DNA of 64,000 nt from Phycisphaerae bacterium (GTDB lineage Bacteria > Planctomycetota > Phycisphaerae > Sedimentisphaerales > Anaerohalosphaeraceae): NCBI GenBank assembly GCA_014859965.1, contig JACZKQ010000167.1, positions 1 to 64,000 on the forward strand, read 5' to 3'. The notes beneath the pieces are model-generated. The model searched no databases and was not told where the DNA came from. It was given only the letters and a program-made list of their open reading frames with translations. The translations under genes and the position numbers were made by a program. Below are positions 6,078 through 24,427 of the stretch, one piece after another; within the stretch, counting starts at the first letter, position 1, and the number at the start of each line of letters is the position of its first letter.

Positions 6078-7046
6078 TCAGAGGCTTTTCCGGGCGCGGA
6101 GCATCGTCTTCTGTGCTTCGCCCGCCGGATCGACGTCGCCGGCCTTCTTCATCAGACGCAGGCGAGCCTGAACCTGGGAAGCCTCGCCTTCGCGCTGCTG
6201 CCGGGCATCTACCTCAGCAAAGTAGCTCTTGAGGAAGATCAAAAACTCAGGCGTAAACTCGTCATCCTCGGAAACACCGGTCTGCGTCTTTGTCTGCTTT
6301 TGGGTTCTCTCCTGAATCTTAAGCTGCCGGGGATTGGGCGACAGACAGATCTTTTTCCGATCCTGCGTCCGCGTGCGATCCTGGATCGGCTCGCCGTCGC
6401 CATCGCCGTCGCCCGGACCTGCGCCGTTGCCCTTCAGCACGGCGGCCGCATCGTCGCCGCACGAACCATCCTGCAACTGGTCGCGCTTTTGATCACGAGT
6501 CTGGTCCTGCTTGGGCTCACCCACCGGCCCGACGCAATCCTGTTTTTTATCCTGCGTCCGCGTGCGATCCTGAATCGGCTCGCCCTCGCCATCACCGTCC
6601 CCCGGCCCCGCGCCGTTGCCTTTCAGCACGGCGAACGCATCGTCGCCGCACGAACCATCCTGCAACTGGTCGCGCTTCTGATCACGAGTCTGATCCTGCT
6701 TGGGCTCGCCCAGCGGCCCGACGCAATCCTGTTTTTTATCCTGCGTCCGCGTGCGATCCTGAATCGGCTCGCCGTCGCCATCACCGTCCCCCGGCCCTGC
6801 GCCGTTGCCTTTCAATAGAGTATCCACATTTTCGACGCCGCCCTGGACTCTGTCACGAGGCCTTTTCTGGATGCGGGGCGATGTTTTGTCCTGATCGTTA
6901 TTGATGTTTTTCTTCTTTTGCGCCGTGGTGCGGGTCTGCTCGGTATTCTGAGGCTGGTCGCCCATGCCTTGCCCGGCTTGGGCCGCCGAAAGCATAATCG
7001 CCATTACCGTCGCCAAAACCGCCGTACCCAATCGTTTGAACTTCAT
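6078..7046 (-). CDS. Secreted Gln/Asp-rich protein with 63-residue tandem repeats
   Basis: The protein (322 aa) has a clear signal peptide (MKFKRLGTAVLATVMAIMLS, cleavage near AQA-G). A very hydrophilic body rich in Q, D, R, T, K and G follows. Residues 78-140 and 141-203 are two nearly identical 63-residue repeats containing GNGAGPGDGDG, EPIQDRTRTQD and two cysteines (QDCVG and GSCGDD). A third, partial copy ends near 229. The C-terminal 70 residues (EFTPEFLIFLKSYFAEV onward) look helical. The composition suggests a disordered or calcium-binding surface protein; no family was recognised. A strong ribosome site, AAAGGAG, lies 6 bases before the ATG. It is divergent from the PPC/protease gene and ends in its own terminator. 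Confidence 0.75.
   Translation of the reverse strand: MKFKRLGTAVLATVMAIMLSAAQAGQGMGDQPQNTEQTRTTAQKKKNINNDQDKTSPRIQKRPRDRVQGGVENVDTLLKGNGAGPGDGDGDGEPIQDRTRTQDKKQDCVGPLGEPKQDQTRDQKRDQLQDGSCGDDAFAVLKGNGAGPGDGDGEGEPIQDRTRTQDKKQDCVGPVGEPKQDQTRDQKRDQLQDGSCGDDAAAVLKGNGAGPGDGDGDGEPIQDRTRTQDRKKICLSPNPRQLKIQERTQKQTKTQTGVSEDDEFTPEFLIFLKSYFAEVDARQQREGEASQVQARLRLMKKAGDVDPAGEAQKTMLRARKSL
6360..6815 (-). repeat. 189-bp in-frame tandem repeat, 2.4 copies
   Basis: Copies occupy 6627-6815, 6438-6626 and 6360-6437 (partial) inside the Q/D-rich gene. The first two differ by only a few bases. The period of 189 bp equals exactly 63 codons, so changes in copy number keep the frame. Near-identity at the DNA level points to recent duplication. 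Confidence 0.9.
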
Positions 7047-7249
7047 TTTGCACTCCTTTCACACATTGAACACCAACTTTTGTCGAACACTTGTCGTTAA
7101 ATCCCCCCGAAACTTCTCGCCGGCCACGATATGTAACGCGGCGGACGCGGTTTTCCTGCGGTTTGTGTGCGAATTTTATGGAAAGTCGTCAGAACTTTGC
7201 ATTTCGAAGCCAAACCGGGGCTGATTCGACAAAAACTTGTGTTTTCTCA

Positions 7250-7275
7250 GTAACACAATGGCGCGGCGCGCACCG
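7250..7275 (+). promoter_or_regulatory. Candidate ECF-type promoter of the PPC/protease gene
   Basis: GTAACA (7250-7255) is followed after 10 bases by GCGCGCACCG (7266-7275) and then TCCTC. The arrangement nearly copies the site upstream of the membrane-fused sigma gene (5750-5776, spacing 11). The predicted start of transcription would leave a leader of about 50 bases before the ATG at 7331. No good sigma-70 promoter was seen in this divergent spacer. Confidence 0.45.
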
Positions 7276-7330
7276 TCCTCATGAAAAGTGTCCTTATATC
7301 TGCAAAACAGTGCATTCGCGGAGAAAAACA

Positions 7331-10300
7331 ATGAAAAGGAAGAGAAAAGTCGCAGTTTTGGTCGTTTCTGTGCTGTTTTCGGTGTTCTCCGGCGTCCTGA
7401 AGGCTCAGCCGGCCAATGATCTGTGCGCTAATGCCGCAGCAGTCTACCTCGACCAGCTTTATTTTGGATCGACGGCCGGGGCAACGGGCTCGGCCGCGAG
7501 CAGTTGTTCGTACAAAGATCGACGCGACGTCTGGCACGTTTTCAAGCCGGCGCAAACGGGTTTGCACACAATCAGTTTGCGCGGAAGTGCTTTTGACACA
7601 ACGCTTTCCGTATATGACGGATGCGGCGGGACCGAACTCGGATGTAATGATGATTTGGATAATCTGTGCTCGGAACTGGTTATCGCCTTGGCGGCCGGAC
7701 AAAACTATATGATTCGCATCGCGGGGTACGATGGAGATGTCGGGGATTACGTTCTGCTGGTGACCGAGCGCCTCATTCAGCCGGAAAATGATTTGTGCGA
7801 GAACGCCATTGAGATTGTGGAATTTATTCCTTTTGAAGGTACAACCATCGGCGCAACTGGCTTCAGCATAAGTACTTGCGCAACCGGCCATGATGTTTAC
7901 CACGCGTACGATGTCTGGCATAGCTTCACCCCGCTGGCGACGGACGAATACGTAATCAGTCTTTGCGGCAGCGATTTTGACACCACTCTGGTGGTGTTCG
8001 ACGCCTGCGGCGGGACTGAAATCGCCTGCAACGACGACGACTGCGGCCGGCAGTCGCGCCTTGTCCTGACGCTTGTGCAGGGGCAGAGTTATTGGATCCG
8101 CGTCGCGGGGTTCGATGGCGACACCGGCGATTACATCCTCAGCGTCTTGCCCCATTTCGCTCAGCCCGTCAACGATCTGTGCGCCGAGGCCACACGGGTT
8201 TGGCTGGGAACGACGCATTACGGAACGACCGACGGCGCGACGGGCACTGCGACGAGCGGCTGCGGACAGAATGATCGCCTTGACGTGTGGCACAGTTTCA
8301 CGCCGGCACAGAGCGGCTGGCACACCGTCAGCCTTAAGGGGAGCGATTTCGACACGACGCTGGCCGTCTACACACGCTGCACCGGCCAAGCGGTCGCCTG
8401 CAACAACGACCTGTACGATGTCCAGTCCGAACTCGTCCTCAACATGTCGGCACAACAGGAATACCTTGTCCGGGTCGCGGGCAACAAGAACACGACCGGC
8501 AATTACGCATTGACGGTGACCGAGCGCTTTGAACAGCCGGCCAATGATCTCTGCGCTAATGCCATGCAGGTGTTCGTCAACGAGCCATATGCGGGCAGCA
8601 CAACGGACGCCCTCGGCAGCGAGGGGTCGAGTTGCGGGTATTACTTCGATCCATATGATGTGTGGCACAGATTCACGGCGCCGGCGACGGCCGACTACCT
8701 GATCAGCCTCTGTGGCAGCGATTTTGACACCACATTATCTGTCTTCGATGCATGCGGCGGCAACGAGATCGTCTGCAATGACGACAGTTGCGGCGATCAG
8801 TCGCTGCTCGTCGCGCCGCTTCTGGCGGGTCAGACGTATCTCATACGTGCGGCCGGCTATGACGGAGACACCGGCGATTACACGCTGCTCGTCTCCGACG
8901 GGGTGGTTCGGCCCGCCAATGATGACTGCGCCGACGCCATCGCACTCGTCAACAACAAACCCTTTGCGGGCTCGACCATCGGCGCGACCGGCAGCTTCGA
9001 ATGCAGTTGCAGCACCGAGGACGTTTACGACGTTTGGCATCGCTTCACGCCCGATGTTTCCGGGGAATACATTGTCAGCCTCTGCGGAAGCAATTTCGAC
9101 ACAACGCTGGCGGTGTTCGATTTCTGTGAAGGAACGGAACTGGCCTGCAACGACGATTTCTGCGGCCGCCAGTCGGAGTTGACACTCAGCCTTGAGCAGG
9201 GATGGACGTACCTCATCCGCGCGGCGGGCTATCGCGGAGCCATCGGCAATTACACGATTGTTGTCGCGGATGCGATATGCGAGATGCCCGATACGCCCGC
9301 CGGTCCCATGCCGGCCGACGGCGTGCGCGGCGTGCCGCTCGATGCGGTGCTTGCATGGGACGATGGTCCTCGCATGACGCACGATGCCTCTTCGACCATG
9401 AGCAAGGGGCTCTACGGCGTCGACGGCCGCATGGAAGAATACCAGGTCGCCAACGCCGGCTGGCTGGCTGTCGGAGACGCCACTGCCGGCACCCTCGCGA
9501 AGGGGGATCTTGTCGATAATGGCGACGGCACGTTCGCGCTGCCCGCGCGGACACTGGCCGAAAAGTACCTGGCGAACACCGGCACGCCGTTGTGCGCCGA
9601 CGAGCCTTACTGCGCCCAACCGGCGCCGATGCTCTGTACGGCGGTGCTGGTCGCACCGGATATCGTCGCGACCACCGGGCACTGCATCCGCACGGCCGCC
9701 GAATGCGCCAATACGGCGTTTGTGTTCGGATTCGTCATGCGCGGTGCGGATGCGCCGGTAACGACTGTCGATCAGTCGCAGGTCTATTTTGGCATGGAAA
9801 TCATCGACCGCCGGCAGGAAGCCGGATCCGACTGGGCGCTGATACGCTTAGACCGACCGGTGCTCGACCACGCCCCGCTGCCGATCCGGAGAGAGGGCAA
9901 GATCGGCGATCATCAAGAGGTGTTCGCAGCGGGGTATCCGCTGGGGCTGCCGAGGAAATATGCCGGCGGCGCCTCGGTGCAGGACAATACCGGCGAGTTC
10001 AACTTTAAGGCCAATATCGATGCGTTTGTCGGCAACTCCGGCTCGCCGGTGGTGAATGCCCAGACTTTGCATGTCGAAGGCATTCTCTATGGCGGAAACG
10101 CCGATTTCGTCCGCGACGGGGGCTGCGACCGCACGAGCGTCTGTCCCGACGAAGGCTGCCCCGGCTGGGAAGCGGTCACCCGGACGACCGCGTTCGCCGA
10201 CCTCGTGCCGTCGTGGGATGTCTACCTCGGAACCGCCGTCGACAGCATGACGCTTCTCTGTGCCGACTCCCCGAAGCCATGGCAGCGCGTCAGGCTTGCG

Positions 10301-10579
10301 TGCTCCACGACTTACTATTGGCAGGTCGTGGCAAGGAACGCATGCGGCCAGACCGCCGGCCCGATCTGGTCGTTCACGACGCAGATCACGGGGGACCTGG
10401 ACCGCGACTGCGACGTGGATATGGAAGACTTTGCGATGCTCGCCAGGCGATGGCTCAGTGCGGACTGCTCGGCCGCCAATGACTGGTGCCTCGGGGCCGA
10501 CCTGAACAGACAGGGCCGGGTTGACGAAAGGGATGTGCGGCTGCTGATCGACAACTGGCTCGAAAAGGTTAACCCATAA
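7331..10579 (+). CDS. Secreted PPC-repeat protein with nested trypsin-like domain and dockerin end
   Basis: The protein has 1082 aa. The ATG at 7331 is chosen because GGAG precedes it by 7 bases and a signal peptide follows (KVAVLVVSVLFSVFSGVLKA). Five PPC-like beta-sandwich repeats start at residues 26, 150, 278, 402 and 527, each with a PxNDxC opening, DVWHxF and a central FDTTL. An FN3-like domain begins near residue 660, breaks off after VLAWDD (about 677) and resumes at SWDVYLGT (about 960). The gap holds a trypsin-like domain with candidate triad H784 (ATTGHC), D834 (SDWALIRL) and S903 (GNSGSP). The C-terminus carries two dockerin-like loops (DLDRDCDVDMEDF and DLNRQGRVDERDV). It should be an exported, possibly surface-anchored protease. 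A second ECF sigma gene follows 26 bases downstream. Confidence 0.88.
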   Translation: MKRKRKVAVLVVSVLFSVFSGVLKAQPANDLCANAAAVYLDQLYFGSTAGATGSAASSCSYKDRRDVWHVFKPAQTGLHTISLRGSAFDTTLSVYDGCGGTELGCNDDLDNLCSELVIALAAGQNYMIRIAGYDGDVGDYVLLVTERLIQPENDLCENAIEIVEFIPFEGTTIGATGFSISTCATGHDVYHAYDVWHSFTPLATDEYVISLCGSDFDTTLVVFDACGGTEIACNDDDCGRQSRLVLTLVQGQSYWIRVAGFDGDTGDYILSVLPHFAQPVNDLCAEATRVWLGTTHYGTTDGATGTATSGCGQNDRLDVWHSFTPAQSGWHTVSLKGSDFDTTLAVYTRCTGQAVACNNDLYDVQSELVLNMSAQQEYLVRVAGNKNTTGNYALTVTERFEQPANDLCANAMQVFVNEPYAGSTTDALGSEGSSCGYYFDPYDVWHRFTAPATADYLISLCGSDFDTTLSVFDACGGNEIVCNDDSCGDQSLLVAPLLAGQTYLIRAAGYDGDTGDYTLLVSDGVVRPANDDCADAIALVNNKPFAGSTIGATGSFECSCSTEDVYDVWHRFTPDVSGEYIVSLCGSNFDTTLAVFDFCEGTELACNDDFCGRQSELTLSLEQGWTYLIRAAGYRGAIGNYTIVVADAICEMPDTPAGPMPADGVRGVPLDAVLAWDDGPRMTHDASSTMSKGLYGVDGRMEEYQVANAGWLAVGDATAGTLAKGDLVDNGDGTFALPARTLAEKYLANTGTPLCADEPYCAQPAPMLCTAVLVAPDIVATTGHCIRTAAECANTAFVFGFVMRGADAPVTTVDQSQVYFGMEIIDRRQEAGSDWALIRLDRPVLDHAPLPIRREGKIGDHQEVFAAGYPLGLPRKYAGGASVQDNTGEFNFKANIDAFVGNSGSPVVNAQTLHVEGILYGGNADFVRDGGCDRTSVCPDEGCPGWEAVTRTTAFADLVPSWDVYLGTAVDSMTLLCADSPKPWQRVRLACSTTYYWQVVARNACGQTAGPIWSFTTQITGDLDRDCDVDMEDFAMLARRWLSADCSAANDWCLGADLNRQGRVDERDVRLLIDNWLEKVNP

Positions 10580-10605: not shown

Positions 10606-11175
10606 GTGCAGTCATTTTCAGATCCCCAACTGATGACAAAACTCGCCGAAGGCAGCCGGCCGGCGCTCGGAGAACTCTTTCTGCGCCATCACAAGAGGGT
10701 CTTCACGTTAGCCTATCGCACATTGGCCGACTGGAGCACGGCCGAAGATGTGACGCAGGAGACCTTTCTGCGGATATGGAACGGGGCCGCCGATTACAGG
10801 CCGGCGGCGGAATTCACCACGTGGCTGTGCCGCATCGTCGTCAACCTGTGCTTCGACGAAAAGAGACGCAACCAGCGGGCCCTAAACAACGTCAAGGCGC
10901 TTGCCGTCACTAAAAACTGTGCGGCAGCCGACCATGCCGCGCCCGAACTCGACAGAGCCCCCGGCAACGGACGCATTTGGCGAGCCTTGATGAAACTCAA
11001 CGAACGGCAGCGACAGGCCGTCGTGCTGCACAAGTTTCACGGGCTCAGCTACATGCAGATCGCCGAACGCACCGGCTGGACACCCTCGGCGGTTGAGAGC
11101 CTGCTCGTGCGCGCCTATCGCACGCTGCGCAAGGAGTTGAAGCCGCATTGTAGCATGAGCGGAAGCACGGACTGA
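10606..11175 (+). CDS. ECF RNA polymerase sigma factor
   Basis: The protein (189 aa) has standard ECF length and layout. Region 2 is at about 20-85, with DWSTAEDVTQETFLRIW and TTWLCRIVVNLCFDEKRR. Region 4 is at about 125-178, with LNERQRQAVVLHKFHGLSYM and a helix-turn-helix (QIAERTGWTPSAVESLLVRA). The start is GTG at 10606; an ATG at 10633 is a possible alternative. It follows the PPC/protease gene by 26 bases and may be read through from it. No anti-sigma gene is found next to it: the 278 bases downstream hold no zinc-finger or membrane protein, so its control must lie elsewhere. It lacks the long C-terminal extension of the other sigma factor in this window. Confidence 0.9.
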   Translation: MQSFSDPQLMTKLAEGSRPALGELFLRHHKRVFTLAYRTLADWSTAEDVTQETFLRIWNGAADYRPAAEFTTWLCRIVVNLCFDEKRRNQRALNNVKALAVTKNCAAADHAAPELDRAPGNGRIWRALMKLNERQRQAVVLHKFHGLSYMQIAERTGWTPSAVESLLVRAYRTLRKELKPHCSMSGSTD

Positions 11176-11453: not shown

Positions 11454-12623
11454 ATGGTGGAGGATATACTTTCCAGCATTTGGAGTGCATCACATTTGAC
11501 CAAGGACGGAGTGAAGAGTCCGTATCGCAAGCCGCCGATATTGCGGGGGTATACGTATTCGGGCGAGGAAGCGTATTCGGCTCGGGACGCGGGGCGGCTT
11601 TTGTCGATTCGGCTGGAGACCAACCGGTCGTGCAATTTGAACTGCCGGTATTGTTACGCCCAGAGCGGGCGGAGCCTGGACGACGAGCTGGCGTACGACG
11701 TGCTCGCGGAGGTGGTGTTACAGGCGGCGGAGCTGGGGGCGGCGTCGGTGGTGGTTATCGGCGGAGGCGAGCCGACGATCTACCCGCGATTCGCTGAGAT
11801 GATCGAGTTGATCGCATCGCTGGGCATGGTTCCGGTCGTGTTTACGAACACGATGAATATGGATGCGGATCTGGCGGCGTTCTTGTATGCGCGGGGCGCT
11901 TCGGTGATGGGCAAGCTGGACTCGCTTCGGCCCCAGGTGCAGGATTTTCTGGCGGGGCGCGAAGGCGCGGCCGAGCGGATGCAGCGCGGGCTGGAGTGCC
12001 TGATGGAGGCGGGTTTTGTCGAGGCGAAAGATGCGCACGAGCTGCGTCTGGGGGCTTCTTTTGTCAGCAACAAGGCCAATCTCGATGAGATCGAGACGAT
12101 CTGGCACTGGTGCAGGGAGCGAGGGATTTTTCCCAATATGGAGGTGCTGACGCCGACGGGGCGGGCCCAGGATGAGTTGGCGGGTTATGCGCTCGCGGAG
12201 GAGGAGATCAAAGAATACAAGCTGCGGCTGCTGGAAGCGGATCGCCGGGACTACGGTTATGACTGGCTTCCGTTTACGCCGCTGACGGCGAGCGGGTGCT
12301 TGCAGCATCTGTACAGCCTTTACATTACGATCGAGGGCGACGTGCGGCCGTGCGCGCCGACGAAGCTGGACGAACATCCGGACCTGAAGGTCGACGGCGT
12401 TTATCCGTACAACGTGAAGCGGATGGGGCTGGCGGATATCTATAAGAGCGAGCTGTTCGAGTATATTCGGCACATCGACCAACATCTGGAGGGCAAGTGC
12501 AGCGGGTGCGAACATCTCGGAGAGTGTATCGGCTGTCGCGGGTACGCGTACGCCGTCGGCGCGAACAAAGGACTTGAGCCGCGGGCGGCGCTGCGGTCGG
12601 AATGTCTTCAGTGTTTCAAGTGA
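11454..12623 (+). CDS. Radical SAM enzyme with SPASM-like cysteine-rich C-terminus
   Basis: The ATG at 11454 (389 aa) is chosen because GAGGGGGGCAGG lies just before it; the frame extends to a TTG at 11436. The CxxxCxxC motif, CNLNCRYC, is at residues 60-67 and binds the [4Fe-4S] cluster that cleaves SAM. VVIGGGEPTIYP is the GGEP motif. The C-terminus has C349, C352, C358, C361 and then C384 and C387, with further cysteines in SGCLQHLYS and VRPCAPT. This is a SPASM/Twitch-like arrangement for auxiliary clusters. Such enzymes modify peptides, amino acids or sugars, but the substrate here is unknown. No small precursor-peptide gene was seen nearby. The last 22 bases overlap the EgtD-like gene, so the two are translationally linked. 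Confidence 0.88.
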   Translation: MVEDILSSIWSASHLTKDGVKSPYRKPPILRGYTYSGEEAYSARDAGRLLSIRLETNRSCNLNCRYCYAQSGRSLDDELAYDVLAEVVLQAAELGAASVVVIGGGEPTIYPRFAEMIELIASLGMVPVVFTNTMNMDADLAAFLYARGASVMGKLDSLRPQVQDFLAGREGAAERMQRGLECLMEAGFVEAKDAHELRLGASFVSNKANLDEIETIWHWCRERGIFPNMEVLTPTGRAQDELAGYALAEEEIKEYKLRLLEADRRDYGYDWLPFTPLTASGCLQHLYSLYITIEGDVRPCAPTKLDEHPDLKVDGVYPYNVKRMGLADIYKSELFEYIRHIDQHLEGKCSGCEHLGECIGCRGYAYAVGANKGLEPRAALRSECLQCFK

Positions 12624-13564
12624 GGCGGCGTGCGGTGGAGAAGATCGAACTGGTGACGGACGAGGCGCTGGAGGCGGATCTGGCGCGGTGTCTTTCGCGG
12701 CGGCGGCTGCCGGACTGCTTTTTGTATACGGGGGCAGGCGGGGCGGAGAAGTGGCTGACGCTGGACGGGTCGGCGACGTTTCCCATCGCGGCGAGGCTGA
12801 CAGAATTGCTGGCGGCCAGTCTCGGCGATCTTCAAAAACACTGGGGTCCGCGGCATAATCTCGTGAGCGTCGGCATAGGCAGCGGCCAAAAGGAACGGCT
12901 CATTTTGCAGGAGATGAGCAGGGAATCGCGCCGGTGCTACTGGTGCGTGGATGTCAGCGGGGCGCTCGTGGATATCGCGCTGACGGCGGTTGCGGATTTG
13001 GAGGTGGACGCGATCGGCGTGGTGGCGTACATGGAGGATTTGGATGCGCTGAAGCGGCTGTGGAGGGAGCCGGTGGTGCTTTGTCTGTTGGGGAATAATT
13101 TCTGCAACTACGAGCCGGATGTGCTGCTGGGCGCGGTTGCCGAGGCGCTGGGAGAGGAGGACCGGTTTCTGTTCGACTGTCATTTGCTCGAAGAGAACGA
13201 CATGTTGAATCCGGCGTATACGTCGGGGCTGAACGCGGAATTCAACGCCCGGCCGCTGGTTGCGCGAGGGCTGGCGGAGACTGGTTTTGCGTTTCATATT
13301 GCGCTTGTGGCGCGGCAGATCAGCGTCGGACGCACATACAGGACGCGCAAATGGCTGGAGATCAAAAAGGAGTCGCGAGTGGCGGCTGACGGGAGGGAGA
13401 TTCGGCTGAGGGCGGGCGAGGACATCGAGATGGGGTTCACGTATAAGTTCGAGTCCGGGCAGGTAGAGGCGCTGCTGAAGCGCTGCGGGTTTTGCATTCT
13501 GGAGCAATGGTTCAGCCCGGCGCGGGAGAACGTTTTGATTCTTGCGGTTAGGGACCACGGTTAG
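12602..13564 (+). CDS. EgtD-like SAM-dependent methyltransferase
   Basis: The protein (320 aa) matches the histidine N-alpha-methyltransferase (EgtD, Methyltransf_33) fold in order. These are the SAM-binding glycine loop GIGSGQKE (91-98), VDVSGALVDIA (117-127), LLGNNFCNY (162-170) and the C-terminal segment GEDIEMGFTYKFESGQVEAL (272-291). EgtD trimethylates the amino group of histidine on the way to ergothioneine; relatives act on other amino acids. No EgtB-like sulfoxide synthase is present, so ergothioneine is unlikely to be the product. The N-terminal part is divergent and the family's substrate pocket cannot be judged by eye. The ATG at 12602 overlaps the radical SAM gene by 22 bases; in-frame GTGs a few codons later are alternatives. 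The ADI-like gene follows after 12 bases. Confidence 0.8.
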   Translation: MSSVFQVRRRAVEKIELVTDEALEADLARCLSRRRLPDCFLYTGAGGAEKWLTLDGSATFPIAARLTELLAASLGDLQKHWGPRHNLVSVGIGSGQKERLILQEMSRESRRCYWCVDVSGALVDIALTAVADLEVDAIGVVAYMEDLDALKRLWREPVVLCLLGNNFCNYEPDVLLGAVAEALGEEDRFLFDCHLLEENDMLNPAYTSGLNAEFNARPLVARGLAETGFAFHIALVARQISVGRTYRTRKWLEIKKESRVAADGREIRLRAGEDIEMGFTYKFESGQVEALLKRCGFCILEQWFSPARENVLILAVRDHG

Positions 13565-13576
13565 GGGGAGAGTGCG

Positions 13577-14545
13577 GTGGAAGCGACTGTTCAACGGGAA
13601 CAGAATGTGCTGTACGGCTGTGAGAAGCTTGCGAGACTGACGACGGCAGTGCTGCACAGGCCCGGCGAGGAACTTTACCTCATAAATGAGAGCAACCACG
13701 TTGACTGGCTTTTCGACCGTGTGCCGGACGTGGCGGGTTATATCGCCGAGCACGATGCGTATCGCCAACTGCTGCAGGCGTGCGGCGTCGAGGTTTTTGA
13801 ACTTGGCGATTATGTGCACGAGAACCGGGCTTTGATGCGGCGGCTTCCGAACCTGACCTTTCTACATGATATCGCCGTGCTTACGAGCAAGGGGGCGATC
13901 CTTTCGGCGATGGCGTGGAAGGCGAGGAAAGACGAACAGAAGGTTGTCAGGGAGGCCCTGGTGGGGCTCGGTGTTCCTATCCTTGTTGAATTTGACGCCG
14001 AGGCGGGCGATGCCTTCGAGGGGTGCCTGCTGCTGTCGCATGAGACGGTTCTGGTGGCACATACCGAGCGGCACAACGGCGCTGCGGTGGGAAAGTTTAT
14101 GCGGCAGATACGCAGGTACTTCAAGGAAGTGGTCTATGTGGATATTCCGCGGGCGCGGCGCTACATGCATCCGGACACAATTTACAACCGCGTCAGCGAA
14201 CGTCTGGCAATCGCCTATCTGCCCGCGTTCAGGGACACCTTTTTGTACACAAATGGCGCCACGGAGCGGATTGATTTCGAGCACTTTATGTCGCAGAAGG
14301 GTGTCGAGATCATCAATGTATCCGATGAGGAACAGCGAAAGCTGGCGTGCACGTTTGTAGTGGTCGAGCCGGGGATGATACTGCACTACGACACCGCACT
14401 GAGCGGCCGCACGCAGCGGGCCCTGGCGAGGCGAGGGGTGGAGCTGGTGCTTTTTCATCCGGAGGCCATGACGGCCGGGGGCGGGAGCCTGCGGTGTCAC
14501 ACTTTGAGGCTGCACAGGGGCGATGCGCGGCGGAAACCGGGCTAA
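13577..14545 (+). CDS. Arginine deiminase / amidinotransferase-like enzyme
   Basis: The protein (322 aa) belongs to the guanidino-group-modifying superfamily. Landmarks are LHRPGEEL (27-33), FLHDIAVLT with D98, a Glu at 148 (AFEGC), the histidine motif MHPDT (H198, D200) and the nucleophile region GGGSLRCHT with C307. In arginine deiminase these correspond to the FTRD, EGGD, HxDT and GGGSxRC motifs. Here EGGD reads EGCL and FTRD reads FLHD, so the substrate may not be free arginine. Family members hydrolyse a guanidine to a ureide or transfer the amidine group. The start is GTG at 13577 after GGGGGAG. It is the third gene of a tight cassette with the radical SAM and EgtD-like enzymes; no carbamate kinase or ornithine transcarbamylase is present, which argues against catabolic arginine use. 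Confidence 0.8.
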   Translation: MEATVQREQNVLYGCEKLARLTTAVLHRPGEELYLINESNHVDWLFDRVPDVAGYIAEHDAYRQLLQACGVEVFELGDYVHENRALMRRLPNLTFLHDIAVLTSKGAILSAMAWKARKDEQKVVREALVGLGVPILVEFDAEAGDAFEGCLLLSHETVLVAHTERHNGAAVGKFMRQIRRYFKEVVYVDIPRARRYMHPDTIYNRVSERLAIAYLPAFRDTFLYTNGATERIDFEHFMSQKGVEIINVSDEEQRKLACTFVVVEPGMILHYDTALSGRTQRALARRGVELVLFHPEAMTAGGGSLRCHTLRLHRGDARRKPG

Positions 14546-18708: not shown

Positions 18709-19995
18709 ATGGAAACCCGAGCGATCAGCAGACGAACGTTTTTGAAGACAGCAAGTCGCGCCGCCGGCGCGGCGGCGGCCTTTTCTATTGTGCCGCGGCA
18801 CGTTCTGGGCGCGCCGGGCCGGCCGGCCCCCAGCGAACAGTTGACCAAAGCAGTCGTCGGCGTCGGCGGCATGGGGCAGGGCCACCTGACCTATCCGGGC
18901 GCCAAACTGCTGGCGATCTGCGACGTTGACGAGCAGCACCTGACGCGGACGCTGGCCAAAGTCGACAAAGACGTCAAAGGCTACAAGGATTTTCGCGAGG
19001 TCGTCGATCGCGACGATATCGACATTATTCACGTACCGACGCCGCCGCACTGGCACGCGCTGATCTCCATCGCTGCCGCCGAGGCAGGCAAAGATGTCTG
19101 GTGTGAAAAGCCCATGACCCGCACTATTGGCGAGGGCAAAAAGGTCCGCGATGCCGTGCTGCGAAACGGGCGTATTTTCCGCCTGAACACCTGGTTTCGT
19201 TTCAGCGGCGGGTTCTACGGCTTCGGCACCACAGTCAAGCCCATCAAGCAGATCGTCGATGCGCGATTGTTGGGTTGGCCGCTTACGGTCACGATCAACG
19301 CCGCGACCGGTTTTGACTGGAAACTAGGTATGTGGAGCGGCCGAACAGACCTGACGCCGCAGACTGTCCCCGCGCACTTCGACTACAATCTCTGGCTGGG
19401 TCCGGCGCCGTGGAAGCCGTATCACGCGCACCGCACCCACGGTTCGTTCCGAGGGTACTGGGATTACGACGGCGGCGGTCTCGGCGACATGGGCATGCAC
19501 TACATCGACCCGGTGCAGTACATCCTGGGCAAGGACGATACATCGCCCGTCGAGATCGAGGCCGACACGCCGCAGCAGCACCCCGACGCGGCAATTCCGT
19601 GGCGGCGCATCGAGATGAAATACGCCGACGGCTGCAAGATCATCCTTGACGGCGAAAACAAAGACGTCAACGCGCCGTTCATTCAGGGCCCGCAGGGCAA
19701 ACTGTATCCGGGTCTGCGATCTGACGTTCCTCGCCTGGCCGAAACGTTAGCCTCGTTGCCCGAACCGGAGCCGCAGGTAACCGACTTTGAGTATGCGGTG
19801 CGCAACCGCCGGAAGTTCGCTCTGAACGAGTCCAACGGCCATCGCTCCTGCACCATTGTTAATCTCGGAGTGATTGCCGTGCGTCTGGCCAGGCCCCTGC
19901 GGTACGACCCGGTCAAGGAGCAGTTCATTGGCGATGACGAGGCCAACCGTTACATCGACCAGCCGCAGCGGGCCCCCTGGTATCTGCCGGCATAA
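18709..19995 (+). CDS. Tat-exported Gfo/Idh/MocA family oxidoreductase
   Basis: The protein (428 aa) has a twin-arginine signal (SRRTFLKTASRAAGAAAAFS, ending near VPRHVLGAP). Next come the Rossmann motif GVGGMGQGH, an EKP motif (WCEKPMTRTIGEGK) and GGLGDMGMHYIDPVQYILG in the catalytic half. It is more distant from the 14853 gene than that gene is from the one at the left edge. It should be a periplasmic oxidoreductase acting on a sugar or glycoside. It follows the 446-bp spacer and precedes the HEAT-DUF1080 protein by 45 bases, so those two probably share a transcript. That pairing suggests it makes or reduces the keto-glycoside the DUF1080 domains would cleave. Confidence 0.92.
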   Translation: METRAISRRTFLKTASRAAGAAAAFSIVPRHVLGAPGRPAPSEQLTKAVVGVGGMGQGHLTYPGAKLLAICDVDEQHLTRTLAKVDKDVKGYKDFREVVDRDDIDIIHVPTPPHWHALISIAAAEAGKDVWCEKPMTRTIGEGKKVRDAVLRNGRIFRLNTWFRFSGGFYGFGTTVKPIKQIVDARLLGWPLTVTINAATGFDWKLGMWSGRTDLTPQTVPAHFDYNLWLGPAPWKPYHAHRTHGSFRGYWDYDGGGLGDMGMHYIDPVQYILGKDDTSPVEIEADTPQQHPDAAIPWRRIEMKYADGCKIILDGENKDVNAPFIQGPQGKLYPGLRSDVPRLAETLASLPEPEPQVTDFEYAVRNRRKFALNESNGHRSCTIVNLGVIAVRLARPLRYDPVKEQFIGDDEANRYIDQPQRAPWYLPA

Positions 19996-20040
19996 AGCCG
20001 CTTAATTTGTATACGTCTCAACCGGATATGGAGAAGAACA

Positions 20041-23000
20041 ATGAAGGCAAGAGCGACATTCCTGATTGCATGTGTTTTATCGATTGCCATTGTCCCGGCG
20101 TTTGCCGACGACGCCCAAATACAGGCCGTAAAGCCGATTCTTGACAAGACCCCGGCTGCGGATCCCGCCGGAACGCAGGCCAACGCCGCGCAACTGGTCC
20201 AGCTTGGCGGCGACGCAATAAAGGCCCTGTGCGGCATGCTCATTGAACCGGGCGGCGACAATGACGTAAAGGTGCGTTATGCACTGGACGGCCTTGCCGT
20301 ACACGTTTCGCGACCCGGCGCCGAGGCCGAACGACTCATGTTCGTCAAGGCCGTCGCCGAGGTGCTGCCCGCTGCCCAAGGCAACGATGTCAAACAGTTC
20401 CTCATCGAGCGGCTCCAGCGAGCCGGCAGGGGCGAAAGCGTAGAAGTCATCGTCCCCTTGCTCAGCGATGAGCGACTCTGCGAACCCGCCGCGCAGGCGC
20501 TGCAGGCCATCGGAACCGACAATGCCAAAGCTGCGCTTGCCGAGGCACTGCCGAAAGCAGCAGGCGCCAACCGCGTGACGATCGTTGGCGCGCTCGGCAA
20601 CCTGCGTTGTGCCTCGGCGACCGCTGCCATTCTCCGGGATGCTCGGAACCGCGATACAAATCTCCGACACGCCGCACTGCAGGCACTGGCCTTGATCGGA
20701 GACCCCTCGGCACAGGCCGCTCTCGCTCGGGCCGCCCAGGCCAAAGGCTCCTATGAACGCGCCTTCGGCACGTCATGTTATCTTCTGTACGCGGGCCGGT
20801 TAGCTGAAGAAGGCAAGGCCGCCGATTGTGCGAAGATCTGCCGCGAGCTGATGGCAGCACGAGCGAAGACCGGCGAATCGCATGTGCAGTGCGCCGCATT
20901 GAGCACCTTGACAGCCGCGCTGGGGGAAGGCGCCCTGGGTGACCTGATGGCTGCCGTGGATGCGGGTGATATTGAAGTGACTGCCGCGGCCCTGATGCTG
21001 GCGCAGAATCTGGGGGGGCCCTCCGCAACCCAGGCGTGGATCGAAGAGGCCAAGACCCGGCCGGCCCCCGCGAAGGCGGCGATCGTTACTATGCTCGCTG
21101 CCCGCGGCGACAAGGCGGCACTCGATTGCATCGTTGCCGCCCTCGGTGATGCCGACAAGGACGTGCGCATAGCCGCTGTGGCGGCCGCCGTCAAGCTCGG
21201 CGGTGATGCCGCCATTAAGCCGGTCATGCAGTTCATTCAGGCTGCAACCGTTGACAGCGAAATCAAATTCGCAGCTGAAACGCTGAACCGCCTCACGGGC
21301 GAGGCTGTCGTCGAAGCGATGGCTGCGGCCCTCCCGCAAAGCGGACCGCGTGCTCAGATTGCCCTCATCGAAGCCTTGGCGGCGCGCAAGGCGCGGGCCC
21401 AGTGCGGCGCCGTTCTTGCGGCTTTTGACGGAGGTGACGCCGCGGTGCATGCAGCGGCCGCCAAAGCACTGGCCGACGTGGCGGCGCCCGCCGACATCGA
21501 CGCGCTCATCCAGCGGCTCAATGCCGCAACAGGCGATTCGGACAAATCCGCCCTGCAGCGGGCCCTCGTCGCGGCCGCCCAGCAGATTGAAGATCCGCAG
21601 GCGCGTGCCGGGAAAGTAATTGCGGCTCTTTCGGCGGCTGATAACGAAAAGAAGGTCCCCCTAATAGGCGTGCTGGCTCGACTCGGCTCTACGGCGGCCC
21701 TGAAGGCTGTTGTTGCCGAAACCGAAAACAAGGAGGCCGTTGCACACGACGCTGCCGTTCGTGCTCTGACCGCCTGGCCGGACGACGAGGCGGCGCCGGC
21801 GATTTTGACCACCATCGAGATGACCACCAATGTTACCCACCGGGTGCTGGCCCTTCGCGGCCTCGTGCGGGTGTTAGGCACCTCGGACAGAAGCGCTGCC
21901 GAGATTACAGGCATGTATGCACGTGCGCTGAGAGCGGCCGACCGGGCTGAGGATAAGAAACTCGTCATTGCCGGCCTTGCCAACGTTCGCACGCTGGATG
22001 CACTGCGCCTTGTAGCCGAGTATCTCGAAGATGCCGACCTCAAGACCGAAGCCGCCGTCGCTGCCGTGCGAATCGCACTCGGCCCCGACGACCGCTCAAA
22101 ACCATTGACCGACAACGAGATCGTCGTCGCCCTGCGCATGGCCATGCCGTCGATCTCCGATGAAAAGACGCGCGACCGGATGAACAAGCTGATCGCGCAA
22201 ATACCGCCGGCTAAGGACGTCCTCGTCCGCCCAGCCCCCGAAGGCTTTGTTGCGCTCTTCAACGGCAAGGACCTCACCGGCTGGAAAGGCCTGCTTGCCA
22301 GCCCCAATGACAACCCGGCCAAGCGCGCCGCCCTGGATGCGGCCAAACTCAAGGAATTGCAGGCCAAGGCCGACGAGACGATGCGGGCCCATTGGTCCGT
22401 CGACAACGGCGTCCTGCATTTCGACGGCCGAGGCTTCAGCCTCGCCACTGCCAGAAACTACGCCGACTTCGAAATGTTAGTCGATTGGCGCGTCGTCGAA
22501 CCCCGCGGCGACAGTGGCATTTATCTCCGCGGCTCGCCCCAGGTGCAGATCTGGGACCCGCAGCAGCATGGCGTCGGCTCCGGCGGCCTGTACAACAATA
22601 AGCAAAACCCCGACAAGCCGCTGGTCACCGCCGACAACCCCATCGGTACGTGGAACACCTTCCGTATCCGCATGACCGGCGAGAAGGTCACCGTCTATCT
22701 CAACGGCCTGCTCGTCGTGGATAACGTCGTCCTGGAGAACTACTGGGACCGCAGTATCCCGATCTTCTCCTCCGAGCAGATCGAGCTGCAGTGTCATGGC
22801 AACCCGATCGATTTCGCCAACATTTTCATCCGCGAGATCCCGCGCCCGGGCGAGTTTCGCCCGCTTTTTAACGGCCGCGACCTCGCCGGGTGGATTGGCG
22901 ATACGAAGGGCTATGTCGTCGAGGACGGCAAGATCGTCTGCAAGCCTGGCGGCAATCTGTATACCGAAGAGCAGTTTGACAATTTCCGCATGAAATTCGA

Positions 23001-23412
23001 GTTCAAGCTGACACCCGGCGCCAATAACGGCCTCGGCATCCGCACACCGCCGGGCGGCGACGCCGCCTACGTGGGCATGGAATTGCAGATTCTGGACGAC
23101 ACAGCAAAGATCTACGAAAACCTTCAGCCGTACCAGTACCACGGGTCGATCTACGGGGTTGTGCCCGCCAAACGCGGCTATCAAAAGCCGGTGGGCGAAT
23201 GGAACAGCCAGGAGGTCATCGCCGACGGCACAAAAATAAAGGTCATTCTCAATGGTGAAACCATCGTTGATGCCGACATTCAGCCGGCCATAGACAACGG
23301 CGCCATGGACGGCCGACCGCACCCGGGGCTCAAACGCAAGACCGGCCACATCGGCTTTCTTGGTCACGGCTCAGTCGTTGAATTCAGGAATATCCAGATT
23401 CGCCGCCTTTGA
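20041..23412 (+). CDS. Secreted HEAT-repeat protein with two DUF1080 domains
   Basis: The protein (1123 aa) has a signal peptide (MKARATFLIACVLSIAIVPA, cleavage after FAD or nearby). Residues about 30-720 are alanine-rich HEAT-like helical repeats. Two DUF1080 domains (3-keto-disaccharide hydrolase family, concanavalin-like) follow: one from about 734 (FVALFNGKDLTGWKG) to 933, and one from about 937 (FRPLFNGRDLAGWIG) to the end. DUF1080 members have been linked to cleavage of 3-keto glycosides, and many are of unknown activity. The first copy has an insert of about 30 residues after the opening strand. Two fused copies behind a HEAT scaffold is an unusual length for the family. The gene closes the sugar locus that starts at 14853. 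Confidence 0.87.
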   Translation: MKARATFLIACVLSIAIVPAFADDAQIQAVKPILDKTPAADPAGTQANAAQLVQLGGDAIKALCGMLIEPGGDNDVKVRYALDGLAVHVSRPGAEAERLMFVKAVAEVLPAAQGNDVKQFLIERLQRAGRGESVEVIVPLLSDERLCEPAAQALQAIGTDNAKAALAEALPKAAGANRVTIVGALGNLRCASATAAILRDARNRDTNLRHAALQALALIGDPSAQAALARAAQAKGSYERAFGTSCYLLYAGRLAEEGKAADCAKICRELMAARAKTGESHVQCAALSTLTAALGEGALGDLMAAVDAGDIEVTAAALMLAQNLGGPSATQAWIEEAKTRPAPAKAAIVTMLAARGDKAALDCIVAALGDADKDVRIAAVAAAVKLGGDAAIKPVMQFIQAATVDSEIKFAAETLNRLTGEAVVEAMAAALPQSGPRAQIALIEALAARKARAQCGAVLAAFDGGDAAVHAAAAKALADVAAPADIDALIQRLNAATGDSDKSALQRALVAAAQQIEDPQARAGKVIAALSAADNEKKVPLIGVLARLGSTAALKAVVAETENKEAVAHDAAVRALTAWPDDEAAPAILTTIEMTTNVTHRVLALRGLVRVLGTSDRSAAEITGMYARALRAADRAEDKKLVIAGLANVRTLDALRLVAEYLEDADLKTEAAVAAVRIALGPDDRSKPLTDNEIVVALRMAMPSISDEKTRDRMNKLIAQIPPAKDVLVRPAPEGFVALFNGKDLTGWKGLLASPNDNPAKRAALDAAKLKELQAKADETMRAHWSVDNGVLHFDGRGFSLATARNYADFEMLVDWRVVEPRGDSGIYLRGSPQVQIWDPQQHGVGSGGLYNNKQNPDKPLVTADNPIGTWNTFRIRMTGEKVTVYLNGLLVVDNVVLENYWDRSIPIFSSEQIELQCHGNPIDFANIFIREIPRPGEFRPLFNGRDLAGWIGDTKGYVVEDGKIVCKPGGNLYTEEQFDNFRMKFEFKLTPGANNGLGIRTPPGGDAAYVGMELQILDDTAKIYENLQPYQYHGSIYGVVPAKRGYQKPVGEWNSQEVIADGTKIKVILNGETIVDADIQPAIDNGAMDGRPHPGLKRKTGHIGFLGHGSVVEFRNIQIRRL

Positions 23413-23672
23413 GGTTGGCTTAACCAGAAAAAACTTGCATGCCAGGCCCTAAACGGAATGTTGTGCGAAGAGTGCGTTTGGGACACGTAAGATTTGGTAA
23501 CAAGTTTTGCATTCAATAATTGGCAGAGTAGGGAAAGAACATGATTTTGTTGCACTGTAATCCTGCCGAAATTGTTGAATGGCTGGCGATTCTTTGTGAT
23601 GGAAACGACACCTTCCCGATACGCGATACTTACACGCTATGGATTCCAAAAGTCCGCGGATGATAAGATAGG

Positions 23673-23701
23673 TTGACACACTTAGAAAAGGCAGTTAAAA
23701 T
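23673..23701 (+). promoter_or_regulatory. Sigma-70 promoter of the TetR/RND efflux operon
   Basis: TTGACA (23673-23678), a 17-base spacer and TAAAAT (23696-23701) form a near-consensus promoter. Its predicted start lies about 30 bases before the TetR gene. No clear palindromic operator was found. The rest of the 23413-23737 spacer holds no gene. Confidence 0.75.
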
Positions 23702-23737
23702 AGGCATTTGAATTAGGGGGCACTTTAGGATTTTGTG

Positions 23738-24427
23738 ATGGCGGAAAGACGAGACGGATTGGCGACCAAATCGCACCTTCTTGCAGCGGCAAGGCGTGTG
23801 TTTGCGGAGAAGGGCTATCGTGATGCGACGAGTGGCGAGATCTGTTCGGCGGCTCGTGCGAATGCGGCGAGCATAAACTATCATTTCGGATCGAAAGAAA
23901 AGCTGTACGCAGAGGTGTGGAAGGAAGCATTTCAGGAGGCGATCGACCGTTACCCGCTGGACGGCGGCCTTGGGGCAGATGCATCCGCAGAGGCGCGCCT
24001 CAAGGCGACGGTCCAGTCGCTGCTGCGGAGGATGTTGGACAGTTCGTCCTTGGGCTACGCCGGGCAGATTGTGCTGATGGAGTTAGCCAACCCGACGGAA
24101 GCACTGGAACTTGTCAAACAGGATGTGATCGAACCCTTGCGTCGGCGGATGCATGCGATTGTGCGAGAGTTGGTGGGTCCGAAGGCCGCCGAGGAACAGG
24201 TGGTCTTCTGTGCGATCAGCATTATTCACCAGTGCCTTGGATTTGGCTTCAAGAAAGGCAAGCTGCCGGCGATGCTTGAATCGCTGGATAAGGAAACATT
24301 GTTGGTGTCTCTGACGGAGCATATCTATCGTTTTTCGGTGGGGGGTATTCGTGCGGTTCGCCCGCAGGTCAATGCGGCGCCGCATGTGAGGTCGGGTGAA
24401 TGTGTGTTTCGAGCGGAGGTTGGTTGA
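23738..24427 (+). CDS. TetR family transcriptional regulator
   Basis: The protein (229 aa) has an N-terminal helix-turn-helix at about 10-56 (LLAAARRVFAEKGYRDATSG, ending with NAASINYHFGSKEKLY). The C-terminal ligand domain resembles the CecR/DUF1956 type (RRRMHAIVRELVGP, IIHQCLGFGF). Such proteins repress adjacent efflux genes until a small molecule binds. ATG at 23738 is chosen; a GTG one codon earlier is possible, and AGGA lies about 9 bases before. It is the first gene of the efflux operon and directly abuts the outer membrane component, so it should control its own transcript from the promoter at 23673. Confidence 0.9.
   Translation: MAERRDGLATKSHLLAAARRVFAEKGYRDATSGEICSAARANAASINYHFGSKEKLYAEVWKEAFQEAIDRYPLDGGLGADASAEARLKATVQSLLRRMLDSSSLGYAGQIVLMELANPTEALELVKQDVIEPLRRRMHAIVRELVGPKAAEEQVVFCAISIIHQCLGFGFKKGKLPAMLESLDKETLLVSLTEHIYRFSVGGIRAVRPQVNAAPHVRSGECVFRAEVG

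Follow-up and report, generated by a model that had tools for sequence, protein, structure and literature searches.

A conserved gene trio combining radical SAM/SPASM, EgtD-fold and arginine deiminase-fold enzymes, and a candidate pathway to an N-methylated amino acid

The closest described relatives of the system considered here are EgtD, the histidine N-alpha-methyltransferase of the ergothioneine pathway, arginine deiminase (ADI; ArcA), the 2-nitroimidazole hydrolase NnhA, which has an ADI-type fold, and radical S-adenosylmethionine (SAM) enzymes of the NirJ/AhbD and SkfB types. In a 64,000-nucleotide stretch of DNA from a Phycisphaerae bacterium (assembly GCA_014859965.1, contig JACZKQ010000167.1, positions 1 to 64,000; hereafter the window), distant members of these families are encoded side by side by three genes. 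Our reading, which we hold tentatively, is that the trio may be a co-inherited pathway from L-arginine or a close relative to a free betaine-type amino acid that carries methyl groups, probably three, on its alpha-amine. The three folds are familiar, active-site residues have shifted in two of them, and we have not found their combination described.

A tight operon that recurs in distant lineages

The first cassette gene encodes a radical SAM/SPASM enzyme (positions 11454-12623, + strand; 389 aa; Radical_SAM and SPASM domains). Its open reading frame (ORF) overlaps by 22 bases that of an EgtD-fold (Methyltransf_33) N-methyltransferase (12602-13564, +; 320 aa), and the gene for an ADI-fold guanidino-modifying enzyme (13577-14545, +; 322 aa) begins with a GTG start 12 bases past the methyltransferase stop. 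The initial annotation had described genes overlapping or 12 bases apart in one direction, which these coordinates confirm; the three genes are a tight operon on the + strand. Purine-rich stretches precede the radical SAM ATG (11454) and the ADI-like GTG (13577). The three enzyme types named there were recovered by Pfam (E-values of 1.9e-17 for Radical_SAM, 5.1e-07 for SPASM, 1.4e-25 for Methyltransf_33 and 4.3e-25 for ADI), and despite these clear family matches none of the three proteins reached any NCBIfam equivalog cut-off. The GC content of the trio and its GC at third codon positions (GC3) equal those of the window neighbours, which rules out a recent transfer of the trio into the window. 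The sole match of an Rfam search was one tRNA.

Six genomes carry the complete trio in the same order and on the same strand. Five are of Planctomycetota, namely that of the window, GWF2_42_9 (locus L006), G120 (L009), G981 (L035) and G1120 (L036), and the sixth is a metagenome-assembled genome (MAG) of Actinomycetota (L005). A scan of the genome collection with the ADI-like protein returned three relatives with 53-62% identity, in L005, L006 and L007, while genome searches added G120 from the same order and G981 and G1120 from the same class. L007 is a contig of an Altiarchaeales MAG that begins within the methyltransferase gene, and a second contig (L019) ends within the radical SAM gene; as these pieces lie at contig ends, the trio is probably whole in this MAG and divided by assembly. 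The pieces are assigned to Altiarchaeales by MAG binning, and since L019 also carries a bacterial-type oligoribonuclease-like gene (G531:C55, 2415-2945), the archaeal origin of that contig needs checking.

The trio is rare and patchy. It was present in 3 of 161 genomes of the window's order, in 3 of 397 sampled genomes of the class (a result from which the known order carriers G054 and G120 are absent), in 1 of 29 Altiarchaeota and in 1 of 31 genomes of the class of the Actinomycetota MAG, and it was never broken up in the loci found. Viral contigs, plasmids and phages yielded only far relatives of single trio proteins, and no further neighbouring gene was common to all trio loci. Recurrence in distant lineages indicates that the association is more than chance. 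The proposal that the genes act together is thus strongly supported: six genomes from two phyla hold the trio in one order, and an archaeal MAG has a split copy, so that the genes are not neighbours in one genome only.

Active sites of the methyltransferase and the ADI-like enzyme

The methyltransferase matched Methyltransf_33 (PF10017) with 90.4 bits (gathering score 23). Its predicted structure (mean predicted local distance difference test score, pLDDT, 82.8) was closest among known structures to EgtD (Z = 32.0; 2.8 A over 295 residues), the next fold reaching Z = 17.9, but the protein fell short of the EgtD equivalog model TIGR03438 (72.3 bits; cut-off 290.9). The EgtD landmarks initially ascribed to it hold for the fold and for the equivalents of Asn166 and Tyr206 of M. 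smegmatis EgtD, which we take to participate in EgtD substrate binding, but not for the specificity residues Met252 and Glu282. An invariant Lys250 within an RTRK motif (13340-13351, +) occupies the position of Met252, and Gly278 and Thr280 within an MGFT motif (13430-13441, +) occupy those of the imidazole-binding residues Glu282 and Ser284. At the 252/282 positions, Met and Glu are present in EgtDs of Sphingomonas, Streptomyces and Caballeronia. An engineered tryptophan-binding EgtD carries M252V/E282A (4PIP), and both positions mutated there are Lys and Gly in every trio methyltransferase. Given the replacement of Met252 and Glu282 in all members, the substrate is probably not histidine, and a Lys facing the side-chain pocket would fit a neutral or acidic side chain.

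Ergothioneine synthesis, already discounted by the initial annotation on the absence of an EgtB-like gene from the window, was rejected because the histidine pocket residues are lost. The retained EgtD fold would also suit a histidine betaine for anaerobes, similar to ergothioneine or selenoneine, in which the methyltransferase would produce hercynine and the radical SAM and NnhA-like ADI-fold enzymes would act on its imidazole. NnhA shows that an ADI fold is able to attack imidazole C2 (PMC11659421). We consider such a route very unlikely, as Glu282 and Met252 are replaced in every member and the carboxylate arginines and the Asp lost from NnhA are present in the ADI-like enzyme.

The ADI-like protein scored above the gathering score of the ADI family PF02274, and structural alignment of its AlphaFold model (mean pLDDT 74.4) confirmed a guanidino-modifying enzyme fold. 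It remained below the ArcA equivalog cut-off (TIGR01078; 88.3 bits, cut-off 489), and the 85-residue helical domain insertion of ADI is missing. By alignment to P. aeruginosa ADI (PaADI; 1RXX), the nucleophile Cys307 (PaADI Cys406) lies in GGGSLRC (14477-14497, +), the catalytic Glu148 (Glu224) in EGCL (14018-14029, +), and Met197, His198 and Asp200 (Met277, His278 and Asp280) in MHPD (14165-14176, +); Asn92 and Asp98 correspond to Asn160 and Asp166 (13850-13870, +), and Arg117 (13925-13927, +) and Arg165 (14069-14071, +) to the substrate carboxylate residues Arg185 and Arg243. C307, H198, E148, D98, D200, N92, R117 and R165 are invariant in all seven trio ADI-like proteins. EGGD and FTRD, described initially as altered, have indeed changed, with the catalytic residues retained: the FTRD counterpart, F/Y-L/M-H-D, keeps its catalytic Asp, and in EGGD two residues that follow the catalytic Glu are deleted (EGGD to EG--CL). 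This deletion takes out the equivalent of Asp227; it is found in 7 of 7 members and, within the alignment, in the trio clade alone. In M. arginini ADI, the carboxylate, amine and aliphatic part of L-arginine are held by Asn155, Arg180, Arg232, Gly392, Phe158 and Met268 (PMC3474736), a list that does not contain Asp227; the side-chain contacts of that enzyme all have counterparts in the ADI-like protein, Phe158 as Phe/Tyr. The complete L-arginine pocket is consistent with the guanidino or ureido chemistry proposed at the outset, and the substrate would be L-arginine or a guanidino amino acid of like length.

Structural matches to the ADI-like model were ADI (Z = 23.6; 294 residues, 3.4 A), NnhA (18.5), AgrE/ArgZ (17.5), the amidinotransferases SxtG (16.4), StrB1 (16.2) and AGAT (16.1), and DDAH (about 16); hydrolysis appears likelier than amidino transfer. 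Known amidinotransferases of this fold use arginine as donor, and the trio-specific loss of Asp227 with its short EG--CL loop marks an altered active site. The ADI-like enzyme could move the amidino group of arginine to an amine made by the radical SAM enzyme, the methyltransferase acting on the same molecule to give a guanidino betaine. This version is rather unlikely in our view, since the protein is structurally nearer to hydrolysing ADI and its Pfam and NCBIfam matches are ADI.

A complete arginine pocket would equally fit ordinary arginine catabolism with two bystander genes. This explanation was rejected as improbable in the extreme: carbamate kinase, reported initially, like ornithine transcarbamylase, as absent from the window, was not found over the family cut-off in any of five trio genomes, no second ADI-family protein was found in them, the trio protein being the sole member, and the trio is conserved in distant lineages. 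The initial annotation's view that arginine catabolism does not account for the set is thereby upheld. Trees of 15 rows for ADI and 10 rows for the EgtD family put the trio ADI-like proteins and methyltransferases each in a clade of their own on a long stem (support 100/100 in both cases), neither grouping with a known enzyme. The comparison sets are small, with plasmid-borne relatives, so that any choice of nearest outgroup would be tentative.

The radical SAM enzyme and the genomic context

The radical SAM protein carries the CxxxCxxC motif of the SAM-binding [4Fe-4S] cluster (CNLNCRYC; 11631-11654, +; cysteines invariant), as annotated initially. The C-terminal cysteines, counted there as six, are eight (C282, C300, C349, C352, C358, C361, C384 and C387), invariant in four of four complete proteins aligned and located in a SPASM region (12297-12614, +) of the form CX12GX4C...CX2CX5CX2C...CX2C. 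Taking CxxxCxxC plus CX9-15GX4C...CX2CX5CX3C...C as the definition, the protein has the SPASM pattern, with CX2CX5CX2C one residue shorter at its end. Orthologues in six other genomes share 58-65% identity. The protein was below every NCBIfam equivalog cut-off tested (NirJ2, AhbD, PqqE, MftC and SkfB), the best being NirJ2 with 80.9 against 500 bits. Its nearest non-trio relatives in the class (34-37% identity), in G968 and G084, lie within fatty-acid/polyketide-like clusters (L037 and L038, respectively) that contain ketoacyl synthases, desaturase-like FAD proteins and cobalamin-type radical SAM-like proteins; in L038 the relative is fused to an ApeP-like dehydratase domain. A more distant relative (30% identity) is found on Sinorhizobium plasmids beside an agmatinase-family gene. 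On plasmid pSF25509a of Sinorhizobium fredii (19039-24365; L047/L048), a 50-aa ORF and genes for radical SAM, agmatinase-family, hypothetical and ATP-grasp proteins stand in a row, a second cassette of radical SAM enzyme and guanidine hydrolase that may be a peptide system.

This plasmid neighbourhood, and SkfB as the best sequence match of the radical SAM protein among solved structures, would suit modification of a protein or of a ribosomally synthesized and post-translationally modified peptide (RiPP), in which one peptide would undergo modification by the radical SAM enzyme, citrullination by the ADI-like enzyme and trimethylation of its N-terminus by the methyltransferase. We judge this unlikely. 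Pfam detected no RiPP recognition domain in the radical SAM protein, the ADI-like enzyme retains residues for a free alpha-carboxylate, and the closer relatives of the radical SAM protein sit in the fatty-acid/polyketide-like clusters. Moreover, an all-against-all comparison of the 294 small ORFs lying within 2 kb of the trio on each side gave no conserved small ORF in the loci compared, and a RiPP precursor near the trio was rejected on this basis. Clear cross-locus matches were obtained only inside a TIGR04076-family gene common to L006 and L009. The small protein it encodes adjoins the trio at L006:6003-6317 (+) and L009:147-530 (-); the two copies are 80% identical, lie on different sides of the trio and were not found at the other loci.

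In GWF2_42_9, the trio is immediately preceded, on its own strand, by genes for an ATP-binding cassette (ABC) ATPase and a permease/binding-protein fusion, the junctions being a 4-base overlap and a 3-base gap. No OpuAC-type protein besides this fusion was found in GWF2_42_9, nor any in the four remaining trio genomes that were searched. The best PDB match of its binding domain is EgtUC, a point that would favour a histidine betaine. Placed on the EgtUC structure, the domain keeps the aromatic cage (N339, Y341, Y419 and Y443), T296 and R379 as carboxylate ligands and, at the position of K242, a Lys within the GSK motif. Tyr replaces F293, Phe replaces Y337 and Phe replaces G244 (EgtUC numbering; N-terminal alignment to ProX), which are the residues reported for betaine-binding AfProX at these positions (PMC9732360). 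With a cage and a carboxylate clamp that match those of betaine-binding proteins, and with residues of the ProX type at all three EgtU-distinguishing positions, the protein should bind a betaine and is unlikely to be ergothioneine-specific, which argues against the histidine betaine. The MttB family comprises trimethylamine and quaternary-amine methyltransferases, and in G1120 an MttB-family gene (L036:2423-3913, +; PF06253, E = 5e-89) is separated from the trio by about 3 kb, in which lie genes for a class I methyltransferase and a chalcone-synthase-like protein (type III polyketide synthase). The links of the transporter and of MttB to betaines are circumstantial.

Elsewhere in the window, positions 6078-7046 (-) encode a protein of repeated VLKGNGAGPGDGDG...EPIQDRTRTQDKKQDC units without a Pfam match, and positions 7091-10579 (+) a large protein that contains five GBD_T9SS_assoc domains and a trypsin-like domain and has a dockerin-like end. 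An ECF (extracytoplasmic function) sigma factor gene (10606-11175) lies just downstream of the latter.

Proposed pathway and comparison with known systems

In the pathway that we infer, from arginine to an N-methylated amino acid, Cys307 of the ADI-like enzyme would, together with His198, Glu148, Asp98 and Asp200, attack the guanidino carbon, either of arginine itself or of an intermediate resembling it, and a ureido side chain would remain. An unactivated carbon of the small molecule would be altered by the radical SAM/SPASM enzyme, and the EgtD-like enzyme would methylate the alpha-amine, presumably three times rather than once or twice, its Lys250/Gly278 pocket being suited to a neutral or acidic side chain and not to imidazole. 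The order of these steps is likewise conjectural, and the product would be a betaine with a role as stress or compatible solute, its producers probably being anaerobes. An N-methylated amino acid is consistent with the EgtD fold, with N166/Y206 and with the betaine transporter in one operon, and the product class proposed by the initial annotation is plausible. More doubtful is the wider idea of a new betaine class, arginine- or citrulline-derived, remodelled by the radical SAM enzyme and N-trimethylated, encoded by a mobile bacterial and archaeal cassette and serving anaerobes as a dedicated solute or protectant.

Several observations weigh against this pathway. Most characterised SPASM enzymes use peptide substrates. 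The methyltransferase is the fastest-evolving member (28-46% identity to that of the window), and in the L006 copy the glycine-rich SAM loop is degenerate (GAVDA). The ADI-like model, with a mean pLDDT of 74, is poor near the active-site Cys loop; the alpha-amine contacts of ADI seem to be kept (Asn92 and Gly301), which fits an unmethylated substrate and leaves the place of the methylation step unfixed; and with Asp227 deleted, the reaction may differ from deimination, for instance as amidino transfer. Finally, only one genome links the betaine transporter to the trio, and the compound imported may be ordinary glycine betaine.

The initial annotation knew of no described pathway with these three parts, and our literature search, with most subscription journals outside it, found no paper on the combination of radical SAM enzyme, EgtD and arginine deiminase. 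Nor did it find one joining radical SAM, EgtD and betaine, or radical SAM/SPASM and arginine deiminase, or arginine betaine and a methyltransferase, or a relevant one on trimethylated arginine, citrulline or ornithine. If the proposal is correct, a new metabolite pathway has been assembled from three known enzyme families, the EgtD family gains a non-histidine branch with readable specificity residues, and an ADI-fold enzyme is placed in biosynthesis instead of catabolism. The three-gene set is small enough to be expressed and its product identified by mass spectrometry.

Compared with known systems, the trio methyltransferase retains the fold of EgtD and the equivalents of Asn166, Tyr206 and Gly161, but differs by M252 to K, E282 to G and S284 to T in all members, by an identity of only 22-23% and by its separate clade. 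With ArcA, the ADI-like enzyme has in common the fold, the Cys-His-Glu triad, the two Asp and the carboxylate and aliphatic-chain contacts, whereas it lacks the helical domain, has a shortened EGGD and is without a carbamate kinase partner. NnhA likewise has an ADI-type fold without the helical domain, but has lost the carboxylate arginines and one guanidino Asp that the trio enzyme retains. The trio radical SAM enzyme shares CxxxCxxC and the SPASM cysteines with NirJ/AhbD-like and SkfB-like enzymes, while it lies far under every equivalog cut-off, and the nearest relatives found outside the trio are no more than about 37% identical to it.

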